From Planctomycetota bacterium (GTDB lineage: Bacteria; Planctomycetota; Phycisphaerae; Tepidisphaerales; Tepidisphaeraceae), in the NCBI GenBank assembly GCA_038746835.1, contig JBCDKH010000007.1:1-44179 (forward strand): 44,179 bases of DNA, read 5' to 3'. Positions within the stretch are counted from its first letter, which is position 1. Each line of letters begins with the position of its first letter. Below are positions 70-33,843 of the stretch, piece after piece. Below the pieces are notes generated by a model, which saw only the letters and a program-made list of their open reading frames with translations, had not been told where the DNA came from and ran no database searches. The position numbers and the translations under genes were made by a program.

Positions 70-173
70 CTCCGTCATCCTGAGCGAGCGGAGCGAGTCG
101 AAGGACCTCGCCTGGGCTGCCGATGCTGAAGCTACCGCAGCGAGGTCCCTCGGCTGCGCTCGGGATGACGGAG
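70..173 (+). repeat. Palindromic repeat family A, copy 1
   Basis: Imperfect inverted repeat of about 104 bp. The left end begins ctccgtcatcctgagcgag and the right end closes with ggatgacggag; both arms contain the cgaggtcc/ggacctcg core. Three further copies lie at 3621-3718, 31051-31144 and 33094-33186. It lies directly before the CHAD gene and no ORF in it is credible. The arms are well conserved between copies and the central loop is not, which suggests selection or mobilisation of a folded element. Confidence 0.85.
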
Positions 174-3620: not shown

Positions 3621-3718
3621 ATCCGTCATCCCGAGCGCAGCCGAGGGACCTCGTCTGGTTTTCCAACGAGTCGCAAGCGAGGTCCTTCGACTCGCTCCGC
3701 TCGCTCAGGATGACGGAT
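3621..3718 (-). repeat. Palindromic repeat family A, copy 2
   Basis: 98-bp imperfect palindrome in the orientation opposite to the other three copies; ends atccgtcatc and gatgacggat. It fills most of the 147-bp gap between the two terminase genes, so the pair either is not co-transcribed or carries this hairpin inside its transcript. Confidence 0.85.
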
Positions 3719-29383: not shown

Positions 29384-29494
29384 AAACGCAAAGGCGCAAA
29401 GAGACGAAGGAACGCAAAGTCAGAGATTTTTTCTCGTCGCGTCTTCCTCTCTTCTGCTCTTTGCGGTTCTTCGCTCCTTTGCGACTTTGCGTTT
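29384..29494. repeat. Long imperfect inverted repeat (cgcaaag type)
   Basis: 36-base arms (29384-29419 and 29459-29494), each built from aacgcaaag/gcgcaaag units, are imperfect reverse complements around a 39-base loop. The unit is of a kind seen dispersed in many environmental bacteria. It lies between rtcB (minus) and the plus-strand unknown gene. Low-GC relative to the surroundings. Confidence 0.75.
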
Positions 29495-29517: not shown

Positions 29518-31062
29518 ATGAGCGCCGTGCCGCCACCACCCGACATCGACGCGACGTCGATCGACGCCGGCTCGGCGACGAGTCTGGACGGGTACGAGGT
29601 TCGGTTCACCATCTCACTCCAGCCGCAGCGTCGGCGAAGCGAGATCGACGATGCCGCGTTCGCCGGCGCATTCGTCGGCATGCACAGCGCGGAAGAGGCG
29701 ATCGAAGCCCTTCGGCCAGACGCCGAGCGTGCACTGGCGAGCGTCACGCAGTCGCTGGAACCAGCCGACGTCGAGGCATGGCAGGCCGAGCCGCCGATCG
29801 AGGCGTTCGCCAAGGCGATCCGCGCGTTCCTGTTTCGCTTCGGTATGGAGACCGGACCGATCCGCGTGAAGGCGTCGTCGCCTGCGTTCGAGGAACAGTC
29901 TGCCATGGCCGAGGCCGCCGAGGCCGCGAAGCGGGCCGAGGGCCACGCGGCGTCGCTGGTGGCGGCCTTCCACGAGCTGCGTCAGAAGCACCCCGACGTC
30001 CCGCCCGGCAAGCTTCTGATGGGCCTGCCCGAGGCGGATCGTCGGCCGACGTTGATGAAGCTCATCGAAGGCGAGGCCGAGCGTGACACGAGCCGCCTCT
30101 TCGTCGCCGCGGGTTCGGCGTTGTACGAGTTGCACGGCGACCAGCTCACCGTCTTCGCCGCCGCCGGCGGGAGTCTCGGTCCGATCCGCCGGCTGGCGTT
30201 CGCGGAAGTGTCAGGCCGGCCGATCGTTGCATGCGGGTGTCGGGACGGCGTGACGCTCCAGCCGGTGGACGTTCCGGACGCGGCGGGTGAAGTGCCGTCG
30301 ATCCTGCCCAACGAGGGAAGCGGTCGTGGCTTTGGGAGCATCGACCTGATCGCCAACGGTGACGGCACGTGCTGGCTCTGGATGACGCACACCGAACGCG
30401 GTGCGGAGTGCCTGCTCATCCGCGGGCTCAGCGCTCCGCTGCCGCCGCTGAAGCGCCTCCAGTTCGTCGATGGACACCACCGGGAATCGAAGTTCGTCGC
30501 GGCACCAGCTGGCGACTGGGCGATGCTGGTCGCCGACGCCGGCGTCGAGATCGCATACACAGGTTCGGGGCACTACACACTCCCGGTTGGCGGGCCTTCC
30601 GCACAGGCTGTCAGGTTCTTCTCGACGCGGGTGCCGCTTCGTCCGCACCCGTTGCTCACTCTCGCGCGAGGTGAAGTGATTGAGGCCGTTGTGTCTGATG
30701 CAGAAGACCTCGAAGAAGTGGATGTTCGGTGGCAGGAGCGCACAAGGTTCGGGACGGACTTAGCAAGTGCAGGTCTGGTTCCGTTCGTCGGCGACATCCG
30801 CATCGCCGCCTGCCTGAAGGACGGGCCGATCGCGGTGGCCGGTGTCGAGGACGACGTCGTGGTCGAGTACCAGTCGCCGTACTCCGGCTTCGCAGAAGTC
30901 GCGGCGTCGGCCGGTTGTGTTGCGGCCATCACCGCCGATCGCGAGCGGCTGGTCGTCTGGCGACTCGATCGTCCGGAGCAGCCCGAGCACGATGTGTTCC
31001 TTCCGAGCACCACCCGCAGCCGCGGAGCGGACCTGATATTCGTTCCTACTTCGTCATCCTGA
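29518..31062 (+). CDS. Conserved-looking protein of unknown function
   Basis: 514 residues from the ATG at 29518; a GTG three codons on (29527) is placed seven bases after a TACGAT hexamer and could be the true leaderless start. An N-terminal alpha/beta part (EVRFTISLQPQRRRSEIDDA) is followed by a charged helical segment (AMAEAAEAAKRAEGHAASLV, about 128-147) and, from about residue 190, a series of beta-rich repeats with short hydrophobic strands (LFVAAGSALYEL, RPIVACGCRDGV, WAMLVADAGVEI) suggestive of a propeller. No signal peptide. I do not recognise the family. The stop codon lies inside a family A repeat, so the C-terminus may have been altered by it. Confidence 0.78.
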   Translation: MSAVPPPPDIDATSIDAGSATSLDGYEVRFTISLQPQRRRSEIDDAAFAGAFVGMHSAEEAIEALRPDAERALASVTQSLEPADVEAWQAEPPIEAFAKAIRAFLFRFGMETGPIRVKASSPAFEEQSAMAEAAEAAKRAEGHAASLVAAFHELRQKHPDVPPGKLLMGLPEADRRPTLMKLIEGEAERDTSRLFVAAGSALYELHGDQLTVFAAAGGSLGPIRRLAFAEVSGRPIVACGCRDGVTLQPVDVPDAAGEVPSILPNEGSGRGFGSIDLIANGDGTCWLWMTHTERGAECLLIRGLSAPLPPLKRLQFVDGHHRESKFVAAPAGDWAMLVADAGVEIAYTGSGHYTLPVGGPSAQAVRFFSTRVPLRPHPLLTLARGEVIEAVVSDAEDLEEVDVRWQERTRFGTDLASAGLVPFVGDIRIAACLKDGPIAVAGVEDDVVVEYQSPYSGFAEVAASAGCVAAITADRERLVVWRLDRPEQPEHDVFLPSTTRSRGADLIFVPTSSS

Positions 31063-31144
31063 GCGAGCGCAGCGAGTCGAAGGACCTCGTCTGACCGTTG
31101 CGCGAATCCAGGCGAGGTCCCTCGGCTGCGCTCGGAATGACGGA
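31051..31144 (+). repeat. Palindromic repeat family A, copy 3
   Basis: 94-bp imperfect palindrome in the orientation of copies 1 and 4; ends tcgtcatcctgagcgag and ggaatgacgga. It contributes the last codons and the TGA stop (31060-31062) of the preceding gene. Confidence 0.85.
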
Positions 31145-32605: not shown

Positions 32606-32851
32606 ATGGATCTCCGCAACGTCGACCTCGGAGCCGCCCTGCGTCGCATCGCCGATCGCCGCATCGAGCAGGCAATGGACGAGGGGAAGTTCAACAACCT
32701 CGAAGGCGAAGGCAAGCCGCTCGACCTCGAGCCGGTACCGGCCGACGAAGAGGCCAAGGCGATGTACTGGGCGGTGAAGCTGTGTCGCCAGAACAACGTG
32801 CTGGGCGACGCGATGAAGAAGGAAGCCCTCCGCCGGACGACGTCGGAATGA
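32606..32851 (+). CDS. DUF1992 (DnaJ homologue subfamily C member 28-like) protein
   Basis: 81 residues. The body ADRRIEQAMDEGKFNNLEGE followed by GKPLDLE is the DUF1992 signature shared by bacterial proteins and eukaryotic DNAJC28; bacterial members lack the J domain, and their role is unknown. It overlaps queG by four bases (ATGA), so the two are translated together. Shorter than many relatives but intact. Confidence 0.9.
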   Translation: MDLRNVDLGAALRRIADRRIEQAMDEGKFNNLEGEGKPLDLEPVPADEEAKAMYWAVKLCRQNNVLGDAMKKEALRRTTSE

Positions 32852-33843
32852 TCGCGTCGCTCCGACTCGCGGCCGCGGTCAAGGAGCGGGCGAGCGATCT
32901 CGGTTTCGACGCCTGCGGCATCGCCTCGGCCGGCGAGACCCAACACGCCGACTACGTCCACCAGTTCTTCCAGCAAGGCCGCCACGGCGACATGGCATGG
33001 CTCGCCAATCGGCGCGACGAACGCCTCGACCCACGCACGTACCTGCCGGGTGCACGCTCGATCATCGTCGTCGCCACCAGCTACAACGTGCCGCTCCGTC
33101 ATCCTGAGCGAGCGGAGCGAGTCGAAGGACCTCGCCTGCCGTCCGACGATCAGACGAGGTCCCTCGACAAGCTCGGGATGACGGAGGGCAAAGTCGCCCG
33201 CTATGCCCTCGGCATCGACTACCACGACCACCTCAAAAACCGGCTCTTCACCCTCGCCGACTGGCTGCGAACGGAGACGCCCTGCGAGACGCGCGTCTGC
33301 GTCGACACGGCCCCGGTGCTCGAAAGCGAGTGGGCCGCGCGAAGTGGCATCGCCTGGCAGGGCAAGAACCGACTCGCCCTGAGTACGACGCTCGGCAGCT
33401 ACCTGCTCCTCGGCGAAATCCTGACCACCGCCGACCTCGCTGGCGACGCGCAAGCAACGAACCGCTGCGGAACCTGCAACGCGTGCATCGACGCCTGCCC
33501 GACCGACGCGCTCACGCCCTACCAGATCGACCCGCGACGCTGCATCAGCACGTGGACCATCGAACATCGCGGCGATGACCTGCCGGGCGATCCCCACGGC
33601 TGGCTCTTCGGCTGCGACATCTGCCAGGAAGTCTGCCCCTGGAACCGCAAGGCCGCCCCGGCGACGGACCCGCTCGTCCAGCCCCGGCCCGGCTTCGAGT
33701 CCGGCACGCTCGACGCGGAAGCCGTGCTGCGTTGGACACCCGACGACTTCCGCTCGGCCACACGCAAGTCGGCGATGCGACGCGTGAAGCTTCCGCAACT
33801 GCAGAGAAACGCCCGGGCCGTTCTTTCGAATGGCCGGGCGTGA
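32848..33843 (+). CDS. queG: Epoxyqueuosine reductase with a repeat-encoded insertion
   Basis: 331 residues. Two [4Fe-4S] sites are clear: CGTCNACIDACP and CDICQEVCPWN. The cobalamin-domain motif VDTAPVLESEWAARSGIAWQ carries the expected proton-donor Asp. It performs the last step of queuosine synthesis in tRNA. Codons 83-113 (33094-33186) are exactly one family A repeat, read in frame as LRHPERAERVEGPRLP and on, inserted between the usual IIVVATSYNVP strand and KVARYALGIDYHDHL. Without it the protein would be 300 residues; the C-terminal HEAT-like part of longer QueGs is missing. ATG at 32848 overlaps the DUF1992 stop. Confidence 0.94.
   Translation: MIASLRLAAAVKERASDLGFDACGIASAGETQHADYVHQFFQQGRHGDMAWLANRRDERLDPRTYLPGARSIIVVATSYNVPLRHPERAERVEGPRLPSDDQTRSLDKLGMTEGKVARYALGIDYHDHLKNRLFTLADWLRTETPCETRVCVDTAPVLESEWAARSGIAWQGKNRLALSTTLGSYLLLGEILTTADLAGDAQATNRCGTCNACIDACPTDALTPYQIDPRRCISTWTIEHRGDDLPGDPHGWLFGCDICQEVCPWNRKAAPATDPLVQPRPGFESGTLDAEAVLRWTPDDFRSATRKSAMRRVKLPQLQRNARAVLSNGRA
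33094..33186 (+). repeat. Palindromic repeat family A, copy 4, in frame inside queG
   Basis: 93 bp, exactly 31 codons, starting on a codon boundary of queG (codon 83) with ctccgtcatcctgagcgag and closing with gggatgacggag. The reading frame through it is open and the flanking QueG motifs continue in the same frame. Confidence 0.9.
33810..33840. terminator. Hairpin overlapping the queG 3' end
   Basis: cgcccgggccgtt and aatggccgggcg pair with one bulge. It encodes the last QueG residues; the TGA follows at 33841. It lies between convergent queG and hsp20, and on the minus strand it is followed by tttctct, so it most likely terminates hsp20 and possibly queG too. Confidence 0.55.

Follow-up and report, generated by a model that had tools for sequence, protein, structure and literature searches.

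Palindromic repeats read as part of a protein are already known, namely the Rickettsia palindromic elements (RPEs), the intragenic repeats of the REP type, and the element within queA of Rickettsia japonica. RPEs (Ogata et al. 2000, Science, as cited in PMC3767692) are in-frame palindromes found in solvent-exposed regions, and R. japonica queA carries RPE-4 (PMC3767692). A catalogue of GTAG- and CGTC-tagged palindromes (Di Nocera et al., 2013; PMC3733652) includes intragenic members that code for 20–30 residues, some of them within enzymes that modify tRNA, and its authors suggested flexible linkers or loops as their possible locations in the protein; its results list CGTC repeats for five phyla without Planctomycetes, a phylum that the abstract mentions for the two types jointly. 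In-frame fusions have also been reported for MITEs (PMC10969869). Protein-coding palindromes have so far been regarded chiefly as a trait of Rickettsia; we describe one here in a planctomycete, within a window of 44,179 nucleotides (the whole stretch of DNA analyzed).

The gene concerned is queG (32848..33843, plus strand; 331 aa, stop included), annotated as an epoxyqueuosine reductase. The ORF scores 265.6 bits against TIGR00276, passing the equivalog cut-off of 200, and contains DUF1730 (PF08331) and double 4Fe-4S (Fer4_16) domains. The DYH motif (D124, Y125, H126) and D153 are invariant, as are the cysteines of the two [4Fe-4S] clusters (C207, C210, C213, C217, C232, C256, C259, and C263); the roles of the catalytic DYH/Asp residues and of the cluster cysteines are described in PMC4646009. 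There is one full-length queG in the genome, together with tgt, an upstream pathway gene, and a partial queA at a contig end. The best matches of an AlphaFold2 model of the protein (35 sequences; mean pLDDT 90.6) are solved QueG structures (PDB 5d0b, TMq 0.82). Because the catalytic and cluster residues are invariant, the model folds as QueG, tgt is present, and queA is partially so, it is plausible that the product retains epoxyqueuosine reductase function with the repeat-encoded loop in place. An earlier note on this DNA had called the enzyme essential-type, a description that we do not retain, as Escherichia coli is viable without QueG, which is a modification enzyme.

Within this otherwise canonical gene, a 93-bp palindromic repeat copy at 33094..33186 (plus strand) is open throughout and corresponds to QueG residues 83–113 (peptide LRHPERAERVEGPRLPSDDQTRSLDKLGMTE). 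The earlier note had proposed both the element and its contribution to the protein, and the ORF, the other genomic copies and the hairpin bear this out, with translation itself deduced from the open frame. The 5′ arm (33095..33134, plus strand) starts TCCGTCATCCTGAGCGAGCG and pairs with the 3′ arm (33154..33185, plus strand), which ends GGATGACGGA, as judged from a consensus of 90 copies. A profile search of 2.13 Mb of the organism's own Phycisphaerales-type genome, a little over half of the total and partly contigs picked for carrying copies, recovered 110 copies (103 nearly full length); contigs not picked in this way, 1.78 Mb in all, account for 70 of them. In a BLAST-type search of the same genome, 40 copies were scored at ≥80% identity, the queG copy included, and the latter shares 80–88% identity over nearly its full length with the other 39. 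Three further copies lie in the window, at 71..172 (plus strand), 3622..3717 (minus strand), and 31050..31144 (plus strand), the last of them directly upstream of a MATE-like transporter ORF. The window also contains a separate inverted repeat at 29384–29494, with arms AAACGCAAAGGCGCAAAG..., of which the surveyed part of the genome contains at least three further, weaker relatives.

Copies of the queG-type repeat are mostly 94–98 bp long, for an element of ~95 bp, and their consensus (90 copies) starts TCCGTCATCCTGAGCGAGCGCAGCGAGTCGAAGGACCTCG and ends CGAGGTCCCTCGGCTGCGCTCGGGATGACGGA around a variable center. Taken whole, the element folds into a single long hairpin (RNA −65.1 kcal/mol, z −6.5; DNA z −5.8) that no shuffled sequence matched in stability, whereas each half-unit by itself is no more stable than its shuffles (z −0.36 and 0.24). 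Direct repeats flanking 78 copies were not above chance, giving no sign of a target-site duplication; no parent transposon or linked transposase was found in the genome, and none of its three Y1_Tnp matches has a repeat within about 1.5 kb (less at contig ends), so that no RAYT link was detected. An Rfam search of the window gave no match, and a literature search with the repeat core found no paper on repeats. The queG element would represent a non-autonomous palindromic repeat of the MITE/REP-like type, one that has reached well over a hundred copies as it spread in this genome.

Since the assembly is a draft of 335 contigs with many repeat copies, two contigs could in principle have been misjoined at a repeat within queG. 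We regard such an artefact as extremely improbable: queG is single, and its two halves are parts of one gene in a common frame. The queG copy, moreover, shows substitutions and two internal gaps relative to the consensus; having its own substitutions, internal deletion and center, it is not a collapsed consensus.

How much weight the open frame should carry is a separate matter. The earlier note had stressed that the element is inserted exactly in frame and begins on a codon boundary. Lengths that are multiples of three occur in only about a quarter of the full repeat copies. The element is indeed in frame, but 53 of the 156 copy and orientation combinations tried at the queG site would also keep the frame open. 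Being in frame is hence what selection leaves behind, starting from a prior probability of roughly one third, and it does not point to any special mechanism. The first base of the 93 bp does fall on a codon boundary as drawn; since the outermost C and G are less certain, the sharply conserved repeat ends being TCCGTCATCC...GGATGACGGA, this property hinges on where the end is placed.

The distribution of copies in the surveyed part of the genome is informative in this respect. Coding-like ORFs, defined by a codon-usage test on both sides, hold only 5 of the 110 copies, against 66.7% of random positions, which argues that most intragenic insertions have been purged and that the queG copy is a tolerated survivor. 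At least one gene besides queG carries the repeat in frame, encoding a DUF2079 membrane protein (L051:7570-7666, own genome C1) in which the domain match (residues 45–442) runs across the element (131–162). Two more probably do so with the element in opposite orientation, encoding a PMT_2-like membrane protein (L059:3605-3699, own genome C3) and a PlsC-like acyltransferase (L072:7198-7301, own genome C20). No DUF2079 relatives for comparison were found in 25 genomes, and those of the PlsC-like acyltransferase were too distant to judge the insertion. The fifth coding-like case lies directly upstream of argB (L088:2154-2250, own genome C158), where the first in-frame ATG is the one inside the GGATGACGGA end of the repeat; this copy may instead be non-coding, or may supply a start codon.

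Comparison with relatives places the element in a region of QueG that varies naturally in alignments of its homologues. QueG homologues are present in 57 of 61 genomes (own included), to which we added 80 QueG loci from named genomes, the nearest being a Phycisphaerales MAG; the relatives span the family, the class and beyond, those in the family belonging to other genera and being about 50–60% identical. The repeat-encoded peptide is absent from all homologues in the QueG alignment, and the repeat DNA from all of the relatives' QueG loci examined, in line with the sister-genome comparison that the earlier note had suggested. That note had also described 31 residues as simply added to the protein. 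The loop is indeed longer, with about 36 residues between the conserved Tyr79 and the KVARYALGIDYH segment versus 10–30, mostly 13–17, in 80 measurable homologues; by this alignment, however, the net growth is about 19–20 residues and the native loop appears mostly missing. Because deletion of the 31 repeat residues would leave about five, fewer than in any homologue, either the native loop was mostly replaced by the element or the loop shrank before or after its arrival, and the event was not a simple insertion.

A second palindrome in the same loop came to light in a genome of another genus of the same family (G003). Here the QueG loop is also long and the ORF open, and the loop DNA (L016:1726-1787) has about 50 matches on both strands of its own genome, with a consensus (GTTCGTAGTACCGCCTTCAGGCGG...CCGCCTGAAGGCGGTACTACGAAC) that corresponds to a GTAG-tagged palindrome. 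Profile comparison revealed no similarity between this repeat and that of the window in either direction. The G003 element starts right after Y-H-A-P and the window element right after Y-N-V-P, which is the same alignment column. Since the two repeats are unrelated and share a start column, the same loop has been formed independently by two unrelated palindromes; it has taken up palindromes at least twice, probably because it tolerates them. A 30-residue QueG loop in another genome (G011), considered as a further repeat, was rejected as it is unique in its own genome; long loops can hence arise in other ways too. Whether the QueG loop is a recurrent landing site, at which unrelated palindromes independently become the loop in the same column after Y-x-x-P, is a more tentative matter, and we put this forward as a possibility that we somewhat doubt. 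If it is true, repeat capture would be a repeatable route to longer protein loops in planctomycetes.

We hypothesize, with considerable confidence, that a non-autonomous palindromic repeat landed in the variable QueG loop and is translated as a disordered loop of a functional enzyme, where it persists through doing little harm. The landing place would be the variable, solvent-exposed loop that follows the strand ending SIIVVATSY and precedes the GKVARYALGIDYH segment; the native loop would for the most part have been lost, either upon insertion or later. With no stops in the frame used and the downstream frame kept, the element would be read as a disordered loop and QueG would stay functional, the insertion persisting because it is of little harm and not because it is useful. 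In the structural model the sole stretch with pLDDT <50 (residues 89–108) falls inside the repeat-encoded segment 83–113, which is accordingly predicted to be a disordered loop.

Some ten residues separate the insert from the catalytic DYH motif downstream of it, and the RNA hairpin of the insert is very stable; a −65 kcal/mol structure in the mRNA might slow translation, which counts against our explanation. These observations would fit a queG that is inactivated or decaying, its folding disrupted by the repeat or its translation blocked by the hairpin, with the frame open by luck, as about a third of copies would leave it. We consider this improbable, as the rest of the gene keeps its invariant residues and its length without stop or frameshift, the predicted fold around the loop is confident, this loop varies across all homologues, and in G003 a different element occupies it with the ORF likewise open. 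The proximity of the loop to the active-site motif and the presence of repeat-derived loops there in two lineages could also be taken to mean that the loop has been co-opted, for instance for binding to tRNA or to a partner, and that selection acts on it. This seems less probable still, and indeed very unlikely, given that the sequences of the two loops are unrelated, that most relatives have short variable loops, and that the segment is predicted to be disordered.

The queG case is a real and well-supported instance in which protein sequence comes from a mobile palindrome; its added interest is the second, unrelated capture at the same QueG loop. Two unrelated repeats in one enzyme loop in two genera provide a natural experiment, if a small one, for studying how selfish DNA turns into protein and what kinds of loop will tolerate it. 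Annotators should be warned that RHPERAxRVEGPRL and similar peptides represent translated repeat.

Among known systems, the window element resembles MITEs (reviewed in PMC10969869) in being short and non-coding with terminal inverted repeats, but differs in lacking target-site duplications (78 copies) and an identifiable parent transposon. It shares with CGTC-tagged REPs an arrangement of inverted units whose outer ends both carry CGTCAT (CGTCAT/ATGACG; TCCGTCATCC...GGATGACGGA, consensus of 90 copies), with the CGTC type the absence of a linked tyrosine transposase, and with intragenic GTAG- and CGTC-tagged REPs the in-frame coding of 20–30 residues. Its half-units, however, lack their own stem of 8–9 bp and loop of 4–5 nt, the whole forming one ~95-bp hairpin; because these short stem-loop units are missing, we do not count it among the CGTC REPs in the strict sense. 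Relative to RPEs, the element comes from another phylum and differs in overall sequence, only 5 of its 110 copies are intragenic, and its queG insertion has been seen in one genome, whereas RPE insertions are common to several species. We set it beside RPEs by description, the ATGAC motif in the palindrome being the sole sequence feature shared: like RPE-4, RPE-6, and RPE-7 (PMC3767692), it is a palindrome of ~100 bp inserted in frame in conserved enzymes, in solvent-exposed regions, and, like RPEs in general, it occurs in frame in unrelated protein genes (here queG and the DUF2079 gene, with two further likely). One RPE lies in the tRNA ribosyltransferase-isomerase gene queA, so that palindromes in Rickettsia and in this planctomycete have hit the same pathway.
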